From NCBI GenBank assembly GCA_900323505.1, contig OOIN01000016.1, forward strand, positions 62,001 through 126,000: a DNA stretch of 64,000 nucleotides. The letters are read 5' to 3'. A program made the position numbers and the translations under genes. Under the pieces are notes generated by a model that was given only the letters and a program-made list of their open reading frames with translations, was not told the origin of the DNA and made no database searches. Shown here piece after piece: positions 2,780 to 64,000 of this stretch; within the stretch, counting starts at the first letter, position 1; each line of letters begins with the position of its first letter. The stretch comes from Ustilago trichophora (Eukaryota; Basidiomycota; Ustilaginomycetes; Ustilaginales; Ustilaginaceae).

Positions 2780-5700
2780 ATGAGGTTCCTCTTTTTCTTC
2801 GCGGCTGCCTACGTCCTCATGGCGGCTGTTGCGTGCCAGCCGCTTCGAGAAGCAAAAGCCGAGCTCCAGTTCAGCAAGAAAGCTTATCGCAACCCTCCCA
2901 AGCCTCCCAACCGCGCTCGATCGGCCAGTCCTAAAGTCAGGCGTGTAAGTCTTTTGATTCTCCTACCTCTCTTGTCTCGTTTCGTCAGTTCAATTCCAAT
3001 TCTTACCACTGCAATCTCTACACTTTGTGCATATGACAGAGAATCAAAGCAATGCTTGAAACGGCAGGTGAAGCTGTGTCCGGCTTTGTTTCTCGCTTTC
3101 GTTCCGGCGATGCAGGAGCCAAGGCTGCAGATGAGGCAATTGAAGCTATAGGTCGTCGTCGAGATCCCCTTTTCACCACCAAGCCCAAAGCTCGACCCTT
3201 TGGCTCTTCCGACACTTTTTACGAACCATCCACTATCGGACCTGAATCGCCTGACTCGTCCACTCCAAAGCCTTTCCAATTCAGCGGTCAAGAAGCTGGC
3301 TATGTGGGTGATACCGATCGCAACTCTCGCACTTCTAAGCTATATGACAGGCCTTCCCTCTCGTCTATTCTGGGTCCTGAAGCCGACAAGGCAGGCAGTA
3401 AAGTTAGACCGGCCACAGAGACCGAAGTCGAAGGCCAGGAAGACAAGCCCAAGCACATATGGGAGGACCCCAAGAACAGGAAAACGATGGTGATAGCTGC
3501 CTCGGTCAGTCTTCTAGCCACTTTGCTCATCACTCGCCAAGTTCAACAGAATATCGACACCACCAACAATCTCAACGCAGCCATAGCTAGTACCCAGGCT
3601 CAGAATGAAGCTGCTTCCCAGCAGGCACTTGCTGAGAACGAGGCCCTCGAAGCTGGTGGTTCCGGCAGAAGCACGTTCCAACGTCGCGATCAGTCCTTGT
3701 CTGCTACCAGCCACAATCAGCTCTCCAAGCGAGGTGGTCCCTTCAACAAGGCTGGTGAGGCGATCGGTAAAGTCGGAACGCGTATTCGAGGCTCTTGGCA
3801 CAATTTCAAACTTCTCTGGCTCAAGTCGGCAGTCCTCAGATTTTCAGTCTTGTGGGGTACAGCCATCCTTACAGCATCGTCGATCACTGGCGGTATCCTT
3901 TACCACGACCACTTGAAGGACAAGAAGCATAAGTCTGAATTGCAAGCCGAACCGCAAGCCGAGCCTCCCATTGCTCCTCCTCCTCCCGAACATCCAAATC
4001 ACACTCACAAGAAGCGCAGTATCGACCCAAGCATCGCAGGAGCATCACACGCCCAAGTCAAGCTCGAGAAGCGCTTCAACCCATTCCGGGCCGTCAGCGA
4101 GTGCTTTCAGAGGACATCAGTGGTCGAGCAAGCTCGAGCTGTCAGGGACATTGTTCAACGTTATCCGATGGAAGCAAAGCGAGTGATGATCAAATACATC
4201 ATGGGTGCCTCAGCATTCCTGGGTGTCGCTGGTGCTCTACTCTACTACGAGATCAGAGGTAGTCGTCAGCCTGCTCCTGAACCTGAGCTGCCCACCAACC
4301 AGGCGGTGCCAGGGACGCCTTCCCCTCCGACTGCTGCTTCTCCCCCTGCCGAACAGTTCATTCACGCAAGGCTCTACAAGCGTTCCATCCATGTCGATCA
4401 GAGCCTCACCCCTGAAGAGACTTCTTCCGAGCACAAGCCTGCAAAGTTGCAAAACCGACTTTCGAAGCGACGAGCTCCCCTCTTTGCAGTCGATGAACTT
4501 GCAAAGGGCGCCCAGGAGGCCTCTGAGAAGACTCCGCTCTTGCATTCAACATCGATGTCTGAAAAAGCTACTTCTGTGATCCCGAAGGAATTTTCCCCAA
4601 AGCCCCTAAAGCAGATCGAGGAAAAGGCACATCCAGCGCCTCACGAGGAAAGATTTCGGAAGGCGACATACCCAATACCCGACGAGGAAAGAAATCTCAA
4701 GGAGCCATCTCGAATAACTGAACAAATCATCTATGGGCTTGCAATTACAGTGGCTGGGCTTACCTTCTCCGGTATCATGGAAGGCGGAGCGTACCTACTA
4801 GGAGCTCCCTGGACCCGCGAGCACAAAGAACAAGCAGAGCGCGACGCTCGTTTCCTCGACTGGTACAAAGCTCATTCTCAAGACGACGCGACTCTGCACA
4901 AGCGAGATTCCATCACGGTGAACTTCAGACGTCTGTCAAAGCGCATGATGGATACGAGTCATACCTTGGCCAGGAGTCAAATGCTAGCCTCTGATGCCGG
5001 TCTTGCATCGCCGCAGACTGTTGCTGCTGCTCACTCTGCTATGCAGAGACAGGAGCAACTCGATTCCAAACTCTCCAAGCGTGCCCCGACCTTGGCTGAT
5101 CTCAGGATCGCGACTGAAAATGCCCTCGAAGCTCTTCGGAACAGGAACAGGAGATTGCAGATGGGTCCAGAGCTCCCCCGAGTCCAGCGCCGTCCACCTC
5201 GTCCCGTTCACCAGCTTGGTCGAAACCCTCCGCGACGAAACGCGCAGCTAACGAGGAAGCAGCAGATCGCGCTCATTGCCGTTGTGTCCACAATGTACTT
5301 CGGTCCCGTGATCGCTGCGATCCTCTTCGCTCGATACCATCATCAAAAGCTTGACCAGAACAGGAAGCAGCAAGAGAGGGAGAAGAACAATCAACAACAG
5401 AATCCTGGACTTTCAAAGCGAGCCTTGTCGTCTGCCGACATTCTTCTTGCTGAAGATGACATGGAAGCTCTTCGGACGAGGGTCAGAAGATTGGCGAGAG
5501 ACCAAGGTTCAGGCAGAGCTCAACGCCGTCCGCCTTTGCTTGAGCGCACTCTAGGTCAAGATCCTGGTCTCAATGCTGAACTCACAAAGGCAGAGATCGC
5601 GCTTTACACCTCCATGGCGGTGGTCGTTGCCGCCGCGACTGCGGCTGTCTTTCTTACAGTTAGACACTCTCAAGCGACAAGGTCCGGTCAGCACTGGAAG

Positions 5701-8700
5701 GAGCAAGAAGGGGAGAAGTTCCACCACCGACGCGATCCAGAGCTTTCCAAGCGCGGTATATCTTTTGAAGAACTCAAGACCGCTTCGGAGGATGCCTTCG
5801 AGGCACTTAAGAGCAGTATTGAGAGATGGAAGAGACTCCGTCAGATCCGCAGAGCCCGCCGCCGTCTCCTCCTCCCAGTGCACACTCTAGGCCAAAATCC
5901 TCGAAACACGATGACTAGGCCAATGCTCACGTGGAAGCAGGAAGTCGCCATCTACGTCGCATTGTTCGCCATCTCCGGTACCCTTGGCTACTATTATGCA
6001 AAAAAGCTGTACGAAATCGAAGAGGAACACCGACGAAGGAAAAAAGCGCAGGAGGAGAACAGGCAGCGACACAATCCTGGGCTCTCCAAGCGTGGTCTGT
6101 CGTTGGGATCGTTGGGAGAGCTCAAGATCGCTTCTGAGGATGCCGTCGAAGCACTTCGAATCAGGCTCAGGCGATGGCAGAGGCAGAGGTGGAGGGACCA
6201 ATATCTCCGTAGAGGCCGTCCTCGTCCACTTCTCCCGGTGTACACCCTCGGTCAGCACCCAAAACCAGGGCCGTTGCTCACGAGGAAGCAGGAGCTCGCG
6301 CTCTTTGCAGCTTTGATCAGTGTGACAAGTCTGATTACCTTCTTCGTCGCAAAGAAGCCCGTGATCGAGCAGAACCGAAGACGGAAGAAAGAGGCACAGG
6401 AGCGAAATCGGAAGCTTCTGCACAAGCGCGCATCCGCCTCCGGGTCACAACACCATGCCGAGCATTCCTTACAAGCGTTTGCTCCCGCCGAAACTACCAA
6501 CGAACGAGTTAGTAGCGAACTCCGACCTCAATCTGGTATTCAGCTTGGATCCCAGGCTGTTCCTCAGCCAGTTCCTCAACCTGTTTTTCAACGTGGTCCT
6601 CAATCTGTTCCTCAACTTGGTCCCGAACATGGTCCTCAACCTCGTCCTCAAAATGAGCAATTAACAGCTTTGGAGAAGCTTTTCAAGTATAAGATCAGAG
6701 TAGCTGTATTAGCGGGAGGTACGTCCGCCGTCATATATGGCTTTGTAAAGCTTTTGCAATGGATTGACAAGGGTGACAAGAAAGCTGAAAAAAATATCCA
6801 ACGCAGAGGTCTGTACCCGCGTTCCATCGAGGAGCAGCGGTCACAGGCGAGGCAACTCTGGAAGCGGGCCATCGCTTCACCCCTTATCGAAGCCGAGCTC
6901 GAGAAAGCCTCCGACACCCTTGTCATAAAGAGAGTCAAGAGCCTAATTGACAAGAGATACTCTGCAGGCGAACTGTGCAGTGCTGCAAAGTCCTCCATGC
7001 GCTTCCCACCTCTGTTCAAGCGGGGTGATGTAGGCGATGCGGCGGCCGAATCATGCGGCGAGGTGATCCAGAGGCTCCGCGACGCGATCCGCCGAAGCGA
7101 CGAACGCCGCCGGAAACTACGCAAAATAGCACGGTGGACCCAATTGGGAGGTTTGGGCTTGTTATTAGTGGAACTACTCGGCCTTGCGATCTACATACAT
7201 ACTCCAGCTGGCCGCCGTATGTTGGAGGAATACCATCGAACCCACCCACGCGCCGACACCACTTCCGGTACCGAGGTCGATTCAACCAGACCTCTGCAGA
7301 AACGAAGTCGAGATCTTGTCAAGAGAGCCATTGGCCGTTCTATCATGCCTGCCGCTGCGGAACAGGTGGAGCAGGCGCTTGAAGTGTTAGGCAACCCTGC
7401 GGCAGAAGAAAGGTTGCGCGACACGCTTCAGGATCAGCAGGAGCAGCGCAACAGTCGACTCGCCGGGCAAGCTGGTCGATACACTCTTTATGGCACTGGC
7501 ACAGCTGCAGGACTGGCAGCAGTGGCCTTTGTAATCTGGCAAGTGGTTAAAGCTGGCCACAGTGTGGCGAGTAAAGACAAGCCAGGCGGCCAATACGCCG
7601 GCACCGAGCACTTTTCCAGCAAACGCGATCACGTCCTGGCCAAGAGAGTTAATCCGCCCATCCGGCCTCTTACCGAAGAAGAGGTGGCCCAAGCGATTGA
7701 AGCGCTAGGCAGGCCTATACAGGAGGATCTGTGGCTCGCCAGATGGCGAGCATGGCGGCAACTTCGCATCAGGCGAGGCTTAGAGAAAGCTAGCAAGATA
7801 GCCTGGTATGTCTCGCTCGGAGACGAGATGAAGCTCAAGGCAATGAGATCAAGCCCACATTTCAATCGACACGACGACACCAATCCCGTTGGCGAGGTCA
7901 TTTCACCCAAGCAGCAGCACAAGCGCGACCGCATCCTGGTCAAGAGAAAGCTTCCTCGTATCATGAAGTCTAGACCTGTCCTACCTGTCACTGAAGAAAA
8001 ACTGGAACAGGCGGTTGAAGTGATAGGCGATCCCGACTTGGAAGAGCGGATGCGCATCAGATATCAGCAAATCGAAGAAAGGCGGCAGGCCGACCGGCGA
8101 GAGCGCAACATACGGAGGGCCAAGTCAGCCGCCAAGTTTGTCATTGGTGTCGCCTCAGCGATTGGAGGCATAGCTCTGCTTGACTGGTGGTTCACACCCG
8201 AAAGCAGCCGTAAAGAGGCAAGAAGAGTCCACCAATTACACCGACGCAACGACGACACCAATCCCGCTGACGAGGTCAGGCCCACCAAGCAGCAGCACAA
8301 GCGCGATCACGTCCTTGTTAAACGAAGCGGTGTTGCACCTGTCAGCGAGGCCTTGGAGGATGAAGCCGTCGCTCGAACCGGCAATCCGCAGCTGGAAGAG
8401 CGAGTGGCACTTGCCAAGATCTACGCCACAATTGCCGGCATCGCCACAGCAGTATATGGCTGTGCAGCTGCTATCGGAATCGGGATCTACAAGCTTGTCG
8501 ATCGTGCGATCAAGCGCAAAGAAAAGGCACGAAACGACCATCACAAGCGCGCCGACATCTTCCCAGTCGCCGAAGTCGACATGATCGCGGCTCAAGAAGT
8601 CACTGGCAATCCTCTTCACGTTCTTTGGAGGCAAAAAGTCGCATTGTTCTGTGACAAGTTTAGCAAAGGTCTCGCCACCACGGCTGCCGTGCTCGGAATT

Positions 8701-9756
8701 GGCACCGGGGTTGCGTATCTGATTCACGAGGCCTACAAGCACCTGGGTCCGGGACGGGACAAGTCGGACCAGTACATGTCGAAACGTGACATGGTGCCCA
8801 CCAAGCGCGATGTTCAGGCAGTCGCCCCAGTTGCCGAAATCGAGCTGGCCACTTCGGTCGAGGCGACCATTGATCCTCGATACGAAGAGTGGAAGCACAA
8901 AGCGGCGACGATCTGCAAAAGAGTCATCTTGGGTGTGGCAGCAATGGTTACGGCGCTGGGAGCCGGATTGGGAATCGGATACTTCTCGTACCTGCACGAC
9001 AAGCATGATGCTGCAAGAAGTACCGAGACTGATGCTCTGCCCACTGCTCCTATCCACGACTTGATCCACCTTCCATCTCGACAGCCGAGACGTCTCGTCA
9101 AGAGGAGCCTGCCCGAAGCCGAGGAGAGCGAGGAGATGATGTCGAAGCGGGAATCGTCTGCCACGTCTGATTTGGTCAAGCGTGGCGAGAATATAGCCAC
9201 AGGACCTCTGATTTTGCGTGTTTTCCGACAGGTTGCGATTGGAACTCGACGATCCGGTATCAACTTTTTCGAGCTTGGAGCTTCGGAGGAAGTCAAGCCT
9301 CAGCCTCAGCATCAGTCTCACCATCGGCATCGACCACATCATCCAGTCTCATCTTCAACCTCGTCTTTGCCCCCCATCCTGACCACCTCGGTTCCTCCAG
9401 GTACGATCGCCAAACTGATGCTATCCCATCCACGCTGGCGAGAATCGCAACGTGACATCGGAACCCCTCCCTCCGGTGCTTTGTCTGACCATGGCCAGTT
9501 GCACAAGCGTACAGTTGAAGCTGCAGCGCCAGAGGTACAGGAGAAGCGCGGAAATAGTTCTGCTACGTTGCGCTTTCCTCTGCTCACCGTGATCTCACTG
9601 GGTGCGCTGCTGGCTTTCAAGGTGAAAAAGGGTCTCGCCGTTTCGGATCACGTCGAGCGACCGTATGGTGATCGCAGATACTTTGCCCATCCACCGCTCT
9701 ATCCCATGCTGAGAAACCGACAGAGGCAGACGGGATGGGATGGCTTTCCACTTTGA
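2780..9756 (+). CDS. Large secreted Kex2-type repeat precursor with about 16 hydrophobic helices
   Basis: Two exons (2780-2944 and 3040-9756) give about 2293 aa. Residues 1-20 form a clear signal peptide (MRFLFFFAAAYVLMAAVACQ). The rest carries about 35 Lys-Arg sites, many written LSKR, LVKR or HKR, that would suit the Golgi protease Kex2. Between them lie separate hydrophobic stretches of 17-27 residues, near residues 203, 319, 442, 618, 797, 907, 1022, 1139, 1273, 1421, 1536, 1753, 1849, 1932, 2017 and 2234. Modules near residues 735-1180 share an acidic helix (A-x-E-D-A-x-E-A-L), an LGQ-x-P turn and an LT-x-KQE lead into the helix. Modules near 1480-1900 instead share EALG/EVIG-[ND]P-x-x-EER. 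Repeat precursors cut by Kex2 are known in fungi (for example smut Rep1), but I do not recognise this one. Processing is inferred. The products could be membrane-active or surface-coating peptides. Uncut, it would be a multi-pass membrane protein. Confidence 0.8.
2945..3039 (+). other. Spliceosomal intron in the large precursor gene
   Basis: A 95-base GTAAGT...CAG intron. Splicing joins codon 55 (after ASPKVRR) in frame with RIKAMLE of the long second reading frame. It therefore attaches the signal peptide to a 2238-residue open frame that otherwise lacks one. It is the only intron I can place with confidence in the window. Confidence 0.85.
6530..6655 (+). repeat. Pro-Gln repeat encoded inside the precursor gene
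   Basis: A run of imperfect short DNA repeats based on GTTCCTCA(A/G) encodes a Pro-Gln-rich linker of about 35 residues (units such as VPQP, GPQS, GPQP). It separates the first block of similar modules from the next helix. It is visible directly and probably arose by slippage. Confidence 0.7.
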
Positions 9757-56154: not shown

Positions 56155-56838
56155 TCAATGCACATGCGGGGCAATGCTTCGCAGGCTCTCTCCCAGCGAT
56201 TCTCCAATTTCTCCCAACGATTTGGCCATGTCCTTGATCTCCGAACCTCCTTCCTGCTTTTTCAGCTCACCGATCAACTTGCCCAAGGGCTCTTCGAGGT
56301 TGTTTGGCAGATCCGGATACTCTTCAACGGCGACCAGCTTAAATTTCTTCGTTCCGGGCTCATTCCTCCACAGGAGTGTAGCCATCTTCTCGTTTCGAAG
56401 ACCCATATGGTCCGCAAGATTATCCGCACCGTAACCTTTCCGGTTGGAGGGGCTAGTATCACCGGGGCGGATGATACTGACGTAGTAGTCGGTTTGACGG
56501 GGCTTATCCTTGATACCCAAGAGAGACTGTTTCCACGACGGGAACTTTACTCGGTCGACAGTAGCAAACTTCCTGAGTCCCTTATGTTGAGCGAGCGACC
56601 AAGCCTTGTCTTCAAAGCCCCAGACTGCTCCATAATTGTGTTTGATTTCCATGTCTTCCAGGATTGGCAGCTTACCTCCCGACGCTTCCCTTTGAAGTTC
56701 AAGTTGGGCTGTTCTTACCCTGCCTTGCATGGATTTGTCTGTTCCGTATAGTTTCGACCGCCAGTAAGCCGATACAGTGGAAGCCAGGACTGCAATGAGC
56801 GATATGCAAGCCATGCGATTCTTGATGACGGCAAACAT
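56155..56838 (-). CDS. Putative secreted effector, cluster member 4 (227 aa)
   Basis: Start chosen at MFAVIKNRMACISLIAVLAS because it opens the signal peptide (cleavage near 24). Core features are YGTDKSM (31-37), FEDKAWSLAQHKGL (75-88), YYVSIIRPGD (118-127), LADHMGL (141-147) and MATLLWRNEPGTKKFKLVAV (152-171). The longest member, it has an amphipathic, Lys/Glu-rich C-terminal extension with IKDMAKSLGEIGESLGESL (201-219), possibly a helix, ending APHVH. Unknown function. Confidence 0.78.
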   Translation of the reverse strand: MFAVIKNRMACISLIAVLASTVSAYWRSKLYGTDKSMQGRVRTAQLELQREASGGKLPILEDMEIKHNYGAVWGFEDKAWSLAQHKGLRKFATVDRVKFPSWKQSLLGIKDKPRQTDYYVSIIRPGDTSPSNRKGYGADNLADHMGLRNEKMATLLWRNEPGTKKFKLVAVEEYPDLPNNLEEPLGKLIGELKKQEGGSEIKDMAKSLGEIGESLGESLRSIAPHVH

Positions 56839-57896
56839 GCTTGTGAAGGATGTCTGAGCCAGTCGATGGCTCAGAAGGTAGGACGTGAGAGGTTGGATGG
56901 AGGGAAAACACAGGGCATAGTCACGCCGATCAAGTATTAGTACCTTTACGCCCCTCGCTTCATGCTGCTTCGGAAGCAGCCCGCTTGTGCAGAACAGCAG
57001 CTGAACGGCAGGCTCGTTTGCCACGCTGCGAAGAAAGTAAAATTTCCACCGCCCACAAGCAATGTCGCCACTCAACTGTAGCACTCAACTGTAGCAAAGT
57101 GAAGGCAGGAGAGTCACTGTTGGTGGTTGAGTGGTGTTGCGCTGAAGGGAGATCTGCGAGGCGACCCTCCATTGTGGGTGGGATACTGTGGGATCAAGAA
57201 GCGTGCAGTTTGACCCCTGGCATCACCTCGGTGGGTCATTGTGTGCAGTATTCAAGCAGACTCCCTCGGTCTAGGCTGAGATTCGCTCGCTTGAGCAAAG
57301 AGGAGGGACAACTTGATTTCTAGGCACGTTCGAAACCAGACTTCGTGGACTCCTGGCCTACCACAGGGCATTATTAGGGAGAAAAGGTGGGCGAAAAATG
57401 CATCGTGTGCAAAGCGAGGGTGTGCAGGACGGGAACAGAAAAAGCTTCTCGACTTCGTATCACACATTGCATAGATATGATGGTGTTGCAGCTAGATCTG
57501 TGAGGTCTTGAGCTCGATGATGTTCCCAGTCAGCCATAAGGGGGCTGGTCGAGCGCAGAGGGCAAGCGACAAAGACTAAGGGAGGGAGACAGGCTGGGAA
57601 GTGCTGAATTCGCTCGACTATGCCTAGCGACGATGGCTGCAGTAGTATAGACGAAAGGTGATGAAAGTATCAAGAAGAACATAATGAAACAGGGTGAGAT
57701 GACGTGGCGAGCTCTGCTTGCCCAGACGCTCTCGCCCTTCCGCACGAATTGCAGACAAGGAGGCCGAAAGAAGAGAGTGGGAGGATGCGGCGGTCTCCAC
57801 TCTCCAGAACGCTGTAGCCCTCGTTTGGAGTGGTAACGGCAAGACTTTAGTCTATGCGGCACAAGCATCAAGTGGGCCTCACCACATAGCCAGCTC
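56839..57896. other. Intergenic, promoter of member 4 and flank repeat copy B
   Basis: 1.06 kb. Next to member 4 lies an upstream segment (about 57102-57200, with GAGAGTCACTGTTGGTGG and GCGACCCTCC words) that recurs upstream of members 5 and 6. Flank repeat copy B follows at 57501. No gene was recognised. Confidence 0.55.
57501..57765. repeat. Cluster flank repeat, copy B
   Basis: Same ordered words as copy A (GAGCTCGATGA, GGGGCTGGTCGAGCGCAG, GACGTGGCGAGCTCT, CCCAGACGCTCTCGCCC). It lies downstream of member 5, the same relative position as copy A to member 2. Confidence 0.75.
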
Positions 57897-58559
57897 CTAC
57901 CATCGGCCAACGTATTGCCAGCCTCGCAGTGACGCTTCCCGCATTTCCTCCATCTGCCCATTCTTTTTCCAGGGATCCAGAATCTCTATCAACCTTTTCA
58001 AGGGATTCCCGACATTTGGCGGAACCGGATACTTGTCTACAGCGACCAGCTTGGATCTCCACTTAAGAGCATCCTTTACGATCTCTTGCCTCCACAAGAG
58101 CGACGCCATTTGATCTGATTGAAGTCCCAAGCTTTCTGCAAGTCTGTTCAGCTTGGGGTCGCGATTGTGGGGGCGGATGATACTAAGATGATAGCTGGTT
58201 TCACGAGGAGTACCCTCAAGTTTGGCTCCTAATAAACGGTCCCCCCATGTGTGGAGCTTGGCTCGGGGCACAGTACGGAAGTACTTGATTGAATTATACT
58301 TTTGAGCGAGCTTGAGAGCATTTTCTTCAAGTCGTGGTGCTTTAATATAGCTGGAAAATCCTCGATGGGGCTCGAATAGCGGCGATTGAAGGACCGTGCC
58401 CTCGGTCACTTCCTGTTGAAGTCTATAGTGAGCATTCCTCACCTGTTCTAGCATCTCTGCATCCGCTCCATATGGCCTCGACCACCAGCTGCCCAACACA
58501 GTGGAAGTCAGCGATGCGATGAGGAAGATACACTCAATGCTTTTCCTGAGGGCCAACAT
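57897..58559 (-). CDS. Putative secreted effector, cluster member 5 (220 aa)
   Basis: Start at MLALRKSIECIFLIASLTST (signal peptide about 1-23); an upstream in-frame ATG would bury it. Core features are YGADAEMLEQVRNAHYRLQQ (30-49), ENALKLAQKYN (79-89), YHLSIIRPHNRD (123-134), LAESLGL (140-146), MASLLWRQ (151-158) and LVAVDKYP. It is most similar to member 4 and to the broken member 6. The C-terminus lacks the His-Val-His ending. Unknown function. Confidence 0.78.
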   Translation of the reverse strand: MLALRKSIECIFLIASLTSTVLGSWWSRPYGADAEMLEQVRNAHYRLQQEVTEGTVLQSPLFEPHRGFSSYIKAPRLEENALKLAQKYNSIKYFRTVPRAKLHTWGDRLLGAKLEGTPRETSYHLSIIRPHNRDPKLNRLAESLGLQSDQMASLLWRQEIVKDALKWRSKLVAVDKYPVPPNVGNPLKRLIEILDPWKKNGQMEEMREASLRGWQYVGRW

Positions 58560-59359
58560 GTTTGCGAAAGACGTCTGCTCCGGTCGATGGCTCAGGAGTT
58601 GAGATGTGAGGTTTTGGATGGGAGGCAAACGCACGACGAAGCAATTTCAATCAACTTCAAGTACCTTTCCAGCCGTGGCTTGATATTCATTTGAGAACTG
58701 GCCCGCTTAGGTAGAGCAGCAACGTGAGAGACTGGTGCATGAAAAAAAGTAAGTCTTCCACAACCGCCAAGAAGCATTGTCTCCACTCATCGGTGGCAGA
58801 GTGGAAGCGGGCGTCCTAAGTACCCACTGTTGGTGGGGGATAGGCATTGTGCGTTGAAGTCGGTGAGCTGACCCTCCAGAGGTGGTGGGTGGTGGGTCTC
58901 GATGGGACTGGAACCACTGGAGCTAAGTGGTAGCTGGCCCTTCCTTCAAGCAGATACATCGCTCGCCCAACTATAATGAAGCGAATATAATTTGAATGCG
59001 ACTGGAACAGCAGGGCCTGCGGCTCGATGAGGCACCCGGTGCGCAGGTTAAAGTCAGTAAAGAGGTGAGCAACAGTTACAAAGGTTGAGAATGCAGGATG
59101 GGAATAGAAAAGGCTAACTCGCTATGCCTCGGAAAAGAGAATGGTACTGAAGGGAATCATTATTTGAATTGAGGTTTGAAGGAGTGGACGAGATCAAGTG
59201 GTGAGCCCCGCTGGCCGAGACGCTCTGGTCCTACCACACAAGTTACATGCTCGTCACCATGCTAGTGGAAGGAGATTTGTTGAGAGTAGTGATGGCGGGG
59301 AAGTGGCCTATACAGCTGAGAGAAACTAGTGGAGTTGATCACGTATTGAACGACCATGC
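58560..59359. other. Intergenic, promoter of member 5 and flank repeat copy C
   Basis: 800 bp. An upstream segment with CCACTGTTGGTGG and GCTGACCCTCCAG near 58820-58880 resembles the one upstream of member 4. Repeat copy C starts near 59011. No gene was recognised. Confidence 0.55.
59011..59250. repeat. Cluster flank repeat, copy C (most degenerate)
   Basis: Retains GCGGCTCGATGAGG, GAGACGCTCTGGTCC and CACACAAGTT-type words in the order seen in copies A and B. It lies downstream of broken member 6. Confidence 0.6.
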
Positions 59360-60006
59360 TCAGCCAACAGGTCGTAAGACCTTCTTCATCGACGCCTCGA
59401 CCTTGGCCAATGGCTCTGCACTTCCTTCGAACGGCTCGTTTAACGAATTAAGTGACGTCAGAACATCCTCAACTTTCTGTAAAGGATATTTGACCTCTTC
59501 CAGATAAGGATATTCGCTGATGTCGATCAATTGGACTTTCTTCGTTATGGCATTCTGTTTCCATACGAGCCTTGCTATCCTGTCTTTTGCGAGACCCATA
59601 CTGTTTGCAAGACCGAACCTGTTCTTGCGGCCATCTCCAGGACACTGGCAAAGTAGTGGTATGCTTGAAGATTCCTCTGTCCCTCTCTAGCAGAAGCCTC
59701 CGACGCCTCGGTCGGTTCAGAACTGCCAAGGTACATGACCCCGTTAGCTTGAGCAAGCTTCCAAGCCCTTTGTCGCAGAAATGGGGTTTTCCAGTAGGCA
59801 AAGAGCCCAGTCTTCGGCGCAAGCTTCCCCCAATCACCTGTACCCGCATGCATTTGTTCCCTACGAAGGTCAAGTTCAGCTGTCCTTGCCTGCTCGATCA
59901 TTTCTGCATCCACTGCATTGAAGTGGGGCCTCCAAGCGGAGACCGTAACAGCTAGAACTGCGATGAGGAAGACATAAACAATACGGTTCTTGGCGACAGC
60001 AAGCAT
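59360..60006 (-). pseudogene. Frameshifted secreted-protein cluster member 6
   Basis: The frame starts with a signal peptide (MLAVAKNRIVYVFLIAVLAV) and family features DAEMIEQARTAELDLRREQ and RAWKLAQANGV. It then leaves the family register right after YHYFASV near 59640 and stops at 59575. The expected continuation (PGDGRKNRFGL, MGLAKDRIARLVW, then a normal C-terminal region) is intact in another frame down to 59360. Comparison with members 4 and 5 suggests loss of a few bases at the S-[IV]-[IV]-R-P motif. No short intron with good splice sites fits. It may be a true pseudogene or a sequencing slip; there is no homopolymer at the break, which favours a real lesion. Confidence 0.75.
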
Positions 60007-60619
60007 TCTTGCTAACAAGGGTGAAGCCTGTCTGGGAATTGGAACCTTGGGTGTATGAATTTGGACGAGGATGATTCAGATGCAACCGAGGTCAGTCATC
60101 CATATATGCCCTCTCTCCATGTGGCTGAAGACAGTAGATCACAGGCGAGGAGCAGTGGGCAGGACTAGCACGATTTTCTGTCACATTTCCTGCTGTGCGT
60201 CACGATTTTGATCGCCAAGCATCGTCGCCACACACATTTCTGCAAAATGGTAACACTTGGTGAAGGCCGAGGTGGGAGAGTCCCACTGCTGGTCGGTGAG
60301 AGACCTCAGCCAATTCTGTGAATCAGCTCGGGCGGGGCTCGATGGAATAATGGAGGGCGCTATTCGACCCACTAAGCCTAGCTCAGTGCGCCCTACCATT
60401 GGACCGACACTTCAGAAGACGCCTTCGCAGGTAGAATGGCTCTTTAGGCAGAGTGAAGGAGTGGGAGACTAGATTGACTGCAAAGAGGAAGTAAAAAGAG
60501 AGTAACGGGAAAAGCAGAAAGTGAAGCTTACTCGTGCTGTGCTTTGATTGGACGAGTGGCAATGTAAGAGGAAGGGGAGAAAGAGGGTTGGGACAGAGAC
60601 AGTTGACCGACAACAATGC
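60007..60619. other. Intergenic, promoter of broken member 6 and 3' region of member 7
   Basis: 613 bp. A segment near 60265-60340 (GAGAGTCCCACTGCTGGTCGG) again resembles the upstream repeats of members 4 and 5. CATATATG near 60101 may be the old TATA box. No gene was recognised. Confidence 0.5.
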
Positions 60620-61267
60620 TCAGTGAACGTGTTTGGCCATCTGCTCCAAAGGCTTGGTACCTTCCTCCAATGACGCGAGAGCCTCGTCGAGTGGCTGAAA
60701 CGACCATTTGGAGCTTTTAAAATGACCATCCTCGTATAGATCAACCAAGTCCAGGTCCTTCTTCCTGGCGGCTGGATTGAGCTTCCATCTGATCACAGCA
60801 ACTGTTTTGTCGCTGATCTTCAACTTTTCAACAAGTCCCATGTCTTTTGCAAGATCGTCGCCAGGACGAATGACACTCCACATATAAGTACGTTCCCGTG
60901 GCCCCTTCTGTCTGAGGAGATGAGCTCTCCACCAAGATGGAGGTGTACTTTCCTTCTTAGCTTTCATGAAACCCGGTCCTTCGGTGTTGGCATGTACCCA
61001 AGCGCTATCTTCCACACTAGGTATATTAAGGAACTTGCGCACCTTGGCAGAAGGCCCAACGTATTCATTCCAATTGTGTCCCGACTGCTGATGGAAATTC
61101 GACTTGTCGGCCTTGAATCCTTCAAGCAGGGACATGTGTGCATCTGCAACTTTCGAGTTCCTTGAGCCATACAGGATAGGCATTGCCGTGACCAGAGTCG
61201 CAAGGATGACGACTGAAAAAATTAGCCGCTGGATCTGTAGAGCCATGACTGACTTCCGTTTCTTCAT
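60620..61267 (-). CDS. Putative secreted effector, cluster member 7 (215 aa)
   Basis: Start MKKRKSVMALQIQ or, seven codons in, MALQIQRLIF. Either opens the signal peptide (LIFSVVILATLVTAMP, cleavage near 28). Core features are EDSAWVHANTEGPGFM (86-101), YMWSVIRPGDDLAKDMGL (128-145) and TVAVIRWKLNP (155-165), then LDLVDLYEDG and WSFQPLDEAL. The usual A-S-L-L-W reads A-V-I-R-W here, a radical change of the core. The ending AKHVH matches members 4 and 8. Unknown function. Confidence 0.78.
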   Translation of the reverse strand: MKKRKSVMALQIQRLIFSVVILATLVTAMPILYGSRNSKVADAHMSLLEGFKADKSNFHQQSGHNWNEYVGPSAKVRKFLNIPSVEDSAWVHANTEGPGFMKAKKESTPPSWWRAHLLRQKGPRERTYMWSVIRPGDDLAKDMGLVEKLKISDKTVAVIRWKLNPAARKKDLDLVDLYEDGHFKSSKWSFQPLDEALASLEEGTKPLEQMAKHVH

Positions 61268-61777
61268 CAGAATCGCCGTTGAATTGTATCGAGGGCTGGT
61301 GTTTGGCTGATGGCTGATGATGAGTCTGCTAACAGGAGCTTACGAAGCCTCTGAAGATTCGGCCCTCTCTCTTCATTGTCTGTTTGAGGGACCCCAGGTG
61401 TGAACAGTCGGCGAACGGCGGGATGTCGGTGGATCTCCACCGCCGAAATGCACTGCTGTCGCAACCACCTACCCCCCCACTGCAACGGGCTGGAAAGAGA
61501 AGTGGGATTCCTTGGCATCGACTGTTGTGAAGTACATGTTAGCGGTTTGCTGCACCTCAGATTTATGCCTCAGCTGTAAAGGTCGTTTCAAGCATTGGTC
61601 GCACTTTTTGAGGAATAGCAGAGAGAAAGATGGAATTGGCGACGAAGTAATGGAAGGACAGAATAGTAGGCAGATCGAAATGCGTATTCGCAAGTGCTTT
61701 CACCAGATGGTGGACAAGGTCTATCACGTGTAAAGGAGTGGTTAACGTTTTCTAGATGGATACCCCGAGTCTAACGT
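61268..61777. other. Intergenic within the secreted-protein cluster
   Basis: 510 bp between members 7 and 8. Short frames only; nothing recognised. Confidence 0.5.
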
Positions 61778-62363
61778 CTAATGGACGTGTCCAACAATCT
61801 CCTGCAAAGGTTCGGCAACCTTGTCCAAGGGCTTGAGAGCATCTTGCAGCGGCCTCTTAGGCCAAACAACCTTGTCATTGTATGTGTACTTGCTGATGTG
61901 AATGAGCTTCTTCTCTTGCGTCTTGGGATTATACTTCCACAGCAACGAAGCCGCTTGCTTTTTGGTCAATTCCAACTTCTTTGCAATACCGTCTGTAGGA
62001 CGGACCTTACTAGAGAGATAGACCTGCGGTTTGGCTCTGAAAAAGACCTTCTTTAGCCAAGAGGGTTTCTCCGTGCCGACGTGAATGAATCCTTGATCTT
62101 GTTTATTGGCGTGATCCCAAGCGTTTCTCGAAAGATCAGGAGAGTTGGGAAACTGGCTTGGCTTGAGGTCTATAGTGGGTCCTTGGTACCACTCCTTGGC
62201 TTCTCCGTAGGTAACAAGATCGATGACTTTGGATTCAATCAGCATACTCTTATCCGTCGATGTCAGCTCTCGCCCTTTTCCTGTACCAAGCTGCAGAGAC
62301 GGCCGTGGTCAGAGTCGTAAAGAGGAGGAAGGAAAAAATCAACTGTCGGATAGAAGGGGCCAT
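61778..62363 (-). pseudogene. Frameshifted secreted-protein cluster member 8
   Basis: The ATG at 62363 opens a good signal peptide (MAPSIRQLIFSFLLFTTLTT) and reads AAWYRKRARADIDG before a stop at 62250. A one-register shift near 62255-62265 opens TDKSMLIESKVIDLVTYGE, which aligns with GTDKSMQGRVRTAQ of member 4. The rest is intact in that frame: AWDHANKQDQGFIHVG, YLSSKVRPTDGIAKKLEL, AASLLWKYNP and the end GHVH. The lesion is thus a single-register frameshift just after the signal peptide. The downstream frame has its own ATG but would lack secretion. It may be a pseudogene, a sequencing error or a strain polymorphism. Confidence 0.72.
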
Positions 62364-62845
62364 GTTTGACTTTGCCAAGCGTCTGACCAGTTGCTTGAAG
62401 AAAGGAGGAAACTGGTTTGAAAGGAGGATTTGGGAGAGGTTATTGATATAGCCTCGAGACCTTTCCCCTTGGAGGAATGCGGATCTGCTGTGGCAAAAGG
62501 GAAGGATCTCACTCAAAAATAAGTGTCCGGAAATGAGGTCCCCACCGCCAAGCCGTCGGTGCATGGGAAATGCGAACTAGCATTAGAGAGGTTTTGTTTC
62601 TCTAAGATCACAAGTTTTGCTTTTTCACTTTCGGATTTTTGTGAGCCAAATTCGGTGGTGTATGTTTAGCGTCATCCTGGTGTGGAATCAATGGGGAAAC
62701 AAATCCCAATTTTCTCAGACTTTTCTCAGCAAAACCTGTTTGGGCTTATGAGCCAACTTCGACTTCCGCTTTTCACTCACAACGGGTGGTACAAAACCTC
62801 TATTTGAGAGAAAAGTTACATAGACCAAACCTTCGAGCTCAATGC
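62364..62845. other. Intergenic within the secreted-protein cluster
   Basis: 482 bp between members 8 and 9. A TATATCA word on the minus strand near 62445 is about 85 bp upstream of member 8. No gene was recognised. Confidence 0.5.
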
Positions 62846-63487
62846 TCAGTGCACGTTTTCGACAATCTCTTGAAGAGGTTTCTCAATCTGCTGCAGAGGT
62901 TCGGCAGTCTCCAGCCGAGAGTGGACAGCCTCCCAAGGCTCGAGAGCTTGTTCCAGCGGCAAACCCGGCCAAGAGACCTTGGGGTTGTCCTTGAACTCCT
63001 CAACGAAAACGAGCTCTTTCCGTTGTTTCCTCGGATTATATTTCCACACCAGCGACGCAGCTTTGCCTTTCTCTAGCTTCATCGTATTTGCAAGATCGTC
63101 ACCAGGATAGACCTTACTGGACAGATATACGTAATGCTCCGGCCTCGCTCCGAGCAACCACTTCCTCCATCGAGACGGATACTCTGTCGCTTTGCCAACA
63201 TGCAGAAAGCCGTGCGCTTCGTCAAAGGCTTGCCCCCACGCAATCTCCGGTAGATTAGGAGCGCTGGGATACTTGCGTGACTCCGGTGTAGTCGTGGGTC
63301 GCAACCAAGGCTGTTTGGTTATTTTCTGGACATCGGCATCAATAATCCTGGAAGCCATGATCATAGCATTGTCCGGGTTTTTCGCTTGTCTTGACTTAAC
63401 AGCTCTGGGCCAGGCTGCAAAAGTGCTCTCGATCAGAGTTGCAAAGAGGATGAAGGATAAGATCAAGTGTCGAATAGAGGATACCAT
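62846..63487 (-). CDS. Putative secreted effector, cluster member 9 (213 aa)
   Basis: Start at the first true ATG (MVSSIRHLILSF), which opens a signal peptide (about 1-25); an in-frame GTG lies six codons upstream. Core features are LPEIAWGQAFDEAHGFLHVG (79-98), YVYLSSKVYPGDDLANTMKL (119-138) and AASLVWKYNPRKQRKELVFV (143-162), then VSWPGLPLEQAL and the ending ENVH. It is clearly the closest relative of broken member 8. Unknown function; part of the expanded family. Confidence 0.8.
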   Translation of the reverse strand: MVSSIRHLILSFILFATLIESTFAAWPRAVKSRQAKNPDNAMIMASRIIDADVQKITKQPWLRPTTTPESRKYPSAPNLPEIAWGQAFDEAHGFLHVGKATEYPSRWRKWLLGARPEHYVYLSSKVYPGDDLANTMKLEKGKAASLVWKYNPRKQRKELVFVEEFKDNPKVSWPGLPLEQALEPWEAVHSRLETAEPLQQIEKPLQEIVENVH

Positions 63488-64000
63488 CTTTGACTGTGGT
63501 TGCACGAACGTCTCGGTAATCGTCAGAAGGTTTTGAAGAGAGGAACTCTGGCCTGAGATGTGAGGAAAAGATAGGTGAAGAGGAAAACTCCGCAGGCGAT
63601 TGCAGTCTTCTAACTACCACGTGCATCGTGTTTCGGAGCGCTCTGAATCGAGCCGACCAGCTGTGATCAAAACAGATGTGAAGCCTTGCTGGTATGTTTT
63701 GGATCTGATGAAATGAAGTCTCCACTGCCGACGAGTATTTTCTTGCCAAAGCTCAGTAGCCAGAGTCCAATGAACGGTAGATGGATGTGGGTCAGAGTGC
63801 TCGATACCCACCGTGAAGCTGGACCGCAGTGCTGTCGGAGGTATCCAAGTTCCACCATTGCCGCTCCTTATGCGCACACAGTTGTGGCTTGCATGCAGTG
63901 TAGGCATCGACCGATCCTTGAAAGATAAGCCGCACGCTGATAGAATGGAAAGTAGGAAGGAGATGAGCGTCATCTAAGATACCCCCTTTGTGTTTGGATC
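63488..64000. other. Upstream region of cluster member 9, to window end
   Basis: 513 bp with no recognised gene. It should contain the promoter of member 9. Whether the cluster continues beyond the window cannot be seen. Confidence 0.5.

Follow-up and report, generated by a model that had tools for sequence, protein, structure and literature searches.

The described proteins closest to the one reported here are Kex2-processed repeat proteins (KEPs). In the excerpted text of PMC4617103, Rep1 of Ustilago maydis is a protein of 652 residues with 12 amphipathic repeats of 34–55 residues; cleavage at its Kex2 sites yields 10 small amphipathic peptides and a further one of 228 residues, with amyloid-like fibrils as the outcome. 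The same excerpt describes Hum3 of U. maydis as 828 residues long, with 17 amphipathic repeats of 31–36 residues, of which 14 have putative Kex2 motifs between them. Ece1 of Candida albicans is a KEP as well, and its product candidalysin is cytolytic (PMC9769878, in excerpt). Here we describe a gene in a 64,000-nucleotide stretch of the Ustilago trichophora genome (contig OOIN01000016.1, positions 62,001–126,000; hereafter the window) that encodes a protein of 2,293 residues, protein A. Like Rep1 and Hum3, protein A comes from the same fungal group and combines a signal peptide with a long chain of modules set between Kex2-type sites. Unlike them, it is 2,293 residues long, has a membrane-grade helix in each module, consists of modules that are at most 49% identical to one another, and carries helix-free pieces between them. 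We conclude that protein A belongs to a real conserved family, undescribed so far as our searches tell, whose members are most likely a novel form of KEP-type precursor with one membrane-type helix per product. Among the matches listed in our literature searches, which covered titles and the starts of abstracts and left most subscription papers and all supplements outside, we found no description of the family or of Kex2-cut multi-helix precursors; such a description may be in print elsewhere.

The gene and its relatives

The gene runs on the plus strand from an ATG at 2780 to a stop codon ending at 9756, with a single GT-AG intron at 2945–3039, and the spliced frame contains no internal stop. 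Residues 1–19 of the product are hydrophobic and of signal type. Beyond them, 16 hydrophobic helices were identified by two scales that agree (Kyte-Doolittle of at least 1.4 and a biological-hydrophobicity score of at most 2). Composition shuffles of protein A yielded a mean of 1.6 and a maximum of 6 Kyte-Doolittle helices (n = 300). A sequence-only reading of this DNA had proposed a spliced gene with a signal peptide at this position, in which about 35 Lys-Arg (KR) sites alternate with about 16 helices; the gene model agrees, and our counts are 36 and 16. Exon 2 matched no Pfam family at the curated cut-off and no PDB chain at E ≤ 1.

We compared five proteins: A from the window, B from a diverged second copy on another contig (C16), and P0001, P0002 and P0003, which have 2,093, 1,271 and 2,991 residues. 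A protein search with exon 2 alone gave no match at E ≤ 0.001. P0001 and P0002 were retrieved with an alignment of two sequences and P0003 with an alignment of four; each search scored only about 8,000 candidates of bounded length that shared the most words, and absence from other smuts is not implied. None of the three matched a Pfam family at E ≤ 0.01. P0003 is from Sporisorium scitamineum and carries the public names "hypothetical protein" and "Transmembrane protein". Its residues 1–56 align to window 2780–2947 (63%) and its residues 55–389 to 3037–4032 (44%), in two pieces. These separate matches, one to exon 1 and one to the first part of exon 2, support both exon 1 and the splice. P0003 shares with A the signal peptide, exon junction, N-terminal module, KR-bounded helices and a cassette with the motif LRVFRQ, and it belongs to the same gene family; it differs in having 22 helices and four LRVFRQ cassettes. 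Across the five proteins, helix number ranges from 7 to 22.

B has 1,857 residues and is 63% identical to A over 1,701 aligned residues, with exon 1, its signal-type start and the intron position as in A. Module content differs between the two: B is without several modules of A and has others of its own. It stops just short of A's last helix (L007, about 8468), and the matching frame beyond is closed. The neighborhood, compared over window 1–26000, recurs on C16, and DNA matches longer than 1.8 kb, 73–89% identical, cover the gene and both its sides. Searches of the 38.8-Mb, 45-contig assembly with exon 2 and with P0003, in which the best candidates were scored, revealed no family locus beyond these two copies. 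The Kex2 P domain is also doubled in this genome, and the sulfate permease is doubled with one further fragment. Because the neighborhood, the P domain and the permease all recur, the genome looks like that of a hybrid or a strongly diverged diploid. Synonymous divergence (dS) of three neighboring genes between the window and C16 is 0.5–1.1.

The exons, modules and one helix-free cassette of the gene, as we drew them, are as follows.

2780–2944, plus: exon 1, signal-type peptide and start of the chain; matched by P0003 1–56 at 63%
2945–3039, plus: intron, GT-AG; the C16 copy is read with an intron at the equivalent place
3040–9756, plus: exon 2, open to the stop by frame reading, KR-bounded modules
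3040–3732, plus: module 1, the portion within exon 2; N-terminal stretch, conserved, and one helix, ending at the first KR (LSKR)
3733–4017, plus: module 2, one hydrophobic helix
4075–4383, plus: module 3, one hydrophobic helix (FNPFRA...); start at the second KR ahead of the helix
4471–4905, plus: module 4, one hydrophobic helix; mostly within a stretch missing from the C16 copy
5083–5421, plus: module 5, one hydrophobic helix, LSKR end
5422–5754, plus: module 6, one hydrophobic helix, LSKR end
5836–6093, plus: module 7, one hydrophobic helix, LSKR end
6094–6429, plus: module 8, one hydrophobic helix, LHKR end
6430–6867, plus: module 9, Pro/Gln-rich stretch, then one hydrophobic helix
7024–7305, plus: module 10, one hydrophobic helix
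7327–7626, plus: module 11, acidic stretch and GNP, then one hydrophobic helix
7948–8304, plus: module 12, acidic stretch and GDP, then one hydrophobic helix
8326–8517, plus: module 13, acidic stretch and GNP, then one hydrophobic helix
8551–8787, plus: module 14, acidic stretch and GNP, then one hydrophobic helix (structure model of low confidence)
8809–9105, plus: module 15, one hydrophobic helix; start at the second KR ahead of the helix
9184–9510, plus: helix-free, KR-bounded cassette with the LRVFRQ motif
9511–9753, plus: module 16, hydrophobic helix at the C-terminus; start at the second KR ahead of the helix; missing in the C16 copy

The helices of modules 3, 15 and 16 have a KR no more than 12 residues ahead of them, and the module start was set at the preceding KR.

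Lys-Arg sites along the chain

KR is far more frequent in protein A than composition predicts. Against the 36 pairs observed, 2,000 composition shuffles averaged 14.7 and never passed 27 (28 at most in 1,000 further ones), while RK and KK stay at expectation (13 versus 14.6 and 9 versus 9.2) and RR is somewhat raised (36 versus 23.3). Per 1,000 residues, A has 15.7 KR against 1.8 in 16 other open reading frames (ORFs) of the window, hand-picked and totaling 8,979 residues, which amounts to an approximately nine-fold difference. The same excess is visible in the relatives: KR counts are 36, 30, 38, 17 and 39 in A, B, P0001, P0002 and P0003, and KR outnumbers RK by 36 to 13, 30 to 9, 38 to 14 and 17 to 7 in the first four (p = 0.064 for P0002).

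Kex2 favors an aliphatic residue at P4, the fourth position before the cut. In A, B, P0001 and P0002, L, I, V or M occupies this position at 74 of 121 KR sites, with Leu at 59, compared with 22 of 90 RR and 10 of 43 RK; these residues make up 20% of the four chains. P0003 follows suit (28/39), bringing the five proteins to 102 of 160. At the KR of the 16 other window ORFs, P4 is aliphatic in only 3 of 16 cases. Nine neighboring KR pairs in the five proteins form a twin site, KR-x5-KR, as in KR-DHVLV-KR and its variants.

These observations bear on the suspicion that the pattern is an artefact, either of the gene model or of chance KR in a chain rich in Arg and Lys. Protein A does consist of 10% Arg and 6% Lys, as this explanation needs. 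Against it, KR far exceeds the shuffles with RK and KK at expectation, the somewhat raised RR lacks the P4 bias, four relatives have the same plan, and KR conservation (below) disfavors chance. We consider an artefact very improbable, and chance KR in particular was rejected on the composition shuffles, the P4 bias and the density in other ORFs.

The placement of KR relative to the helices is also ordered. All 15 of the gaps that separate the helices of A contain a KR, as do 67 of the 68 gaps in the five proteins together; random placement filled 57.5 on average and reached 67 in none of 5,000 trials. When B, as a near copy of A, is set aside, 56 of 57 gaps are filled, a number that random placement reached once in 5,000. 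Digestion of the five proteins at KR in silico produced 165 fragments, of which 70 contain one helix, 1 contains two and the rest none. KR alone divides A into 37 fragments, where KEPs are expected to give at least 4 by KR/RR cutting. The one-helix fragments of A under strict KR cutting (n = 16) are 59–144 residues long, apart from one of 284.

Finally, KR is conserved above other pairs. In local BLAST alignments of distant ordered pairs of proteins, with both directions counted and with paired modules that may be non-equivalent, KR was kept in 91 of 167 aligned pairs, compared with 19/97 for RR, 2/61 for RK, 0/29 for KK and 1,815/10,878 for all dipeptides. Between A and B, identity is 86% at KR residues (51 codons), 70% in helices and 64% elsewhere. 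Orthologues lacking KR between the helices would have spoken against processing, as the sequence-only reading had pointed out; the relatives instead keep the sites, at a level far from full conservation. The cut sites of this family fit Kex2, both in being KR with an aliphatic P4 and in being kept above other dibasic pairs.

Because order, P4 context, placement and conservation of KR agree, we read the chain as probably processed. The best explanation, which we give a somewhat better than even chance on the strength of the sequences, is that the gene encodes a Kex2-processed secretory precursor of varied single-helix membrane-type peptides. Such a precursor had already been proposed for this locus. 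The architecture and the KR conservation uphold that proposal; cutting, release and a membrane- or surface-active function of the peptides are what we infer from them.

Counter-evidence and the topology problem

Several observations weigh against processing. Taken one protein at a time, the gap pattern is weak (p = 0.13, 0.25, 0.15 and 0.30 for A, B, P0001 and P0002), and KR with an aliphatic P4 cover 14 of the 15 gaps of A. One gap in P0003 has no KR, and one predicted P0003 helix contains a KR itself, which excludes it from the one-helix fragments. Of 27 aligned KR of A, 7 are not KR in B (20 are kept), and the alignment of A to P0002 keeps only 1 of 5. P0001 and P0002 as predicted have no signal peptide, probably a consequence of exon 1 not having been called. 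Predicted structures for a single module and for the N-terminal one are helical with low confidence (predicted local distance difference test scores of 58.9 and 54.6).

The most serious point concerns topology. By score, the helices are on a par with those of a sulfate permease and a major facilitator superfamily (MFS) protein, two transporters encoded in the window, and judging by this hydrophobicity the precursor could enter the membrane with many spans. The genome has two copies of a Kex2-type gene, recognized by the P domain in a family search and by reading of the protease part and a C-terminal hydrophobic anchor. The catalytic domain of Kex2 sits in the trans-Golgi lumen, according to the excerpt of PMC2515848. 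If all helices span, KR sites are divided between odd and even loops by 20 to 16 in A, 13 to 17 in B, 19 to 19 in P0001, 9 to 8 in P0002 and 23 to 16 in P0003. Thus, with the Kex2 domain in the lumen, about half of the KR sites would be cytosolic and beyond its reach if every helix spanned the membrane. The sequence-only reading did not raise this problem, on which the precursor reading is most likely to stand or fall.

A fixed topology would be expected to leave a trace in the charges flanking the helices. Basic residues per flank (even/odd) average 3.06/3.81, 3.58/3.42, 3.69/3.00, 1.86/2.29 and 2.77/3.14 in the five proteins. The MFS transporter, which served as a clear positive control, alternates strongly by the same count (2.50/0.58); the sulfate permease is a weaker, unclear control (1.12/1.88). 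By this flank count, the positive-inside alternation is absent from all five proteins, and a fixed alternating topology was rejected as not fitting the flank charges. We therefore read the chain as not built for a fixed multi-span topology.

These results also bear on the rival view that the protein sits uncut at the smut cell surface as a multi-span membrane protein, with KR as a loop feature that has no role in processing. Helix scores comparable with those of the permease and the MFS transporter are what it predicts, and the public name "Transmembrane protein" on P0003 is in keeping with it. The missing inside-outside charge alternation speaks against it, with the weaker permease control in mind, as do the range of helix numbers among the five proteins and the fact that KR, rather than RR, RK or KK, is the pair that is conserved and biased at P4. 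We regard this rival as unlikely.

Modules, predicted products and known precursors

A typical module has a charged stretch ahead of its helix and a hydrophilic tail behind it. The C-terminal modules of A follow a common PVAE...GNP pattern, and in a low-confidence structure model of one of them, a turn at NP separates a short helix from a single long one. The sequence-only reading had described a recurring order of acidic helix, basic stretch, hydrophobic helix and tail; modules 11–15 fit this well, and the others only loosely. Module lengths in A range from 64 to 146 residues, with module 1 longer, and 8 of the 16 modules exceed 100 residues. The closest of the 120 module pairs is 49% identical, and the median is 25%. 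Under single-linkage clustering, in which overlapping entries (P0002 modules 2/3 and P0003 modules 3/4) make the sizes rough, the modules of the five proteins form two larger groups plus many small groups or singletons. The counterparts of module 1 fall in one cluster, and the counterpart of module 3 comes after a dibasic site in all five proteins. In P0003, 14 of 22 helix-bearing module entries are not linked to modules of another protein at E < 1e-3.

The Pro/Gln-rich part of module 9, which has eight residues fewer in the C16 copy, is encoded by a 12-base repeat at 6557–6651. This was the only repeat found, and an origin of the gene from tandem DNA repeats was rejected. LRVFRQ cassettes occur once each in A, P0001 and P0002 and four times, KR-bounded, in P0003; the B copy was seen by alignment, the pattern search having missed it. 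The P0003 copies lie in tandem at residues 2605–2936, are helix-free and KR-bounded, and resemble one another more than the modules of A do. Elsewhere in the window, the minus strand at 56155–63613 carries four similar-looking stop-to-stop ORFs (56155, 57897, 60620 and 62846) of 239–309 residues, each hydrophobic near its start and together perhaps a tandem array of secreted proteins. The two of them that were searched had no Pfam match at E ≤ 0.01.

If protein A is a processed precursor, its signal peptide would direct the chain into the endoplasmic reticulum, where the helices might be translocated or held without a fixed alternating topology, leaving all sites exposed to the Golgi lumen. 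Kex2 would then cut at KR, often within Leu-x-Lys-Arg, in the late Golgi. The products would be about 16 different fragments, mostly of about 60–145 residues, each carrying charged ends and a single membrane-type helix. Short linkers would be freed wherever twin sites stand five residues apart, and helix-free fragments such as the LRVFRQ cassette would be released as well. The one-helix products may coat or insert into a membrane or surface, whether the fungus's own or the membranes of a host or microbe.

Two known precursors suggest what such peptides might do, and each yields a sub-case of the preferred explanation. Rep1 and Ece1 were compared with A by description rather than by sequence. 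In the first sub-case, the Kex2-cut peptides would form a water-insoluble coat on the hypha, as with Rep1, which is from the same fungal group and gives Kex2-cut, fibril-forming peptides (PMC4617103, in excerpt). The helices of our family are rich in small residues, with 1.0–3.6 [GA]xxx[GA] motifs per helix against 0.7–0.9 in the two transporters, which would suit a coat. The products here are larger than those of Rep1, though, and the helices are membrane-grade and non-amphipathic (mean moment 0.12–0.17, compared with 0.12 and 0.19 in the transporters). We think this sub-case rather doubtful.

In the second sub-case, the peptides would permeabilize the membranes of host or competing cells, like the product of Ece1. 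Ece1 has a KR-bounded module layout in a much shorter precursor with small modules; by description, the layout is alike and A is much longer. Fast protein evolution and the turnover of modules between copies would be expected of such weapons. The ratio of nonsynonymous to synonymous substitution (dN/dS) between A and B is 0.51 over 1,571 well-aligned codons, compared with 0.08, 0.10 and 0.16 in three neighboring genes. Fast evolution also fits relaxed constraint, and this sub-case appears improbable to us. Open frames of 1,271–2,991 residues, as read in these sequences, argue against gene decay.

On present evidence, protein A behaves like a KEP, yet it is no clear member by the definitions used in surveys. 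In the excerpts available, one survey (Le Marquer; PMC6339444) discards TMHMM-positive proteins, and another (Umemura; PMC7329392) requires repeats of at most 100 residues with an identity score above 0.6. Protein A would very probably fail the former filter and probably the latter.

A further, more tentative reading is that each gene serves as a peptide library, from which Kex2 would cut more than 12 different single-helix membrane peptides and whose members may be gained, lost and diverged module by module. It would imply an unusual way of translocating or holding helices; as judged from these sequences, we would not yet expect it to hold. If the chain is cut, a peptide class has probably been dropped by the filters of the two KEP surveys, as excerpted, and one gene would supply a plant-associated fungus with varied membrane-type peptides. 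The family also poses the question of how a protease confined to the Golgi lumen would reach sites before and after every one of 16 membrane-grade helices.

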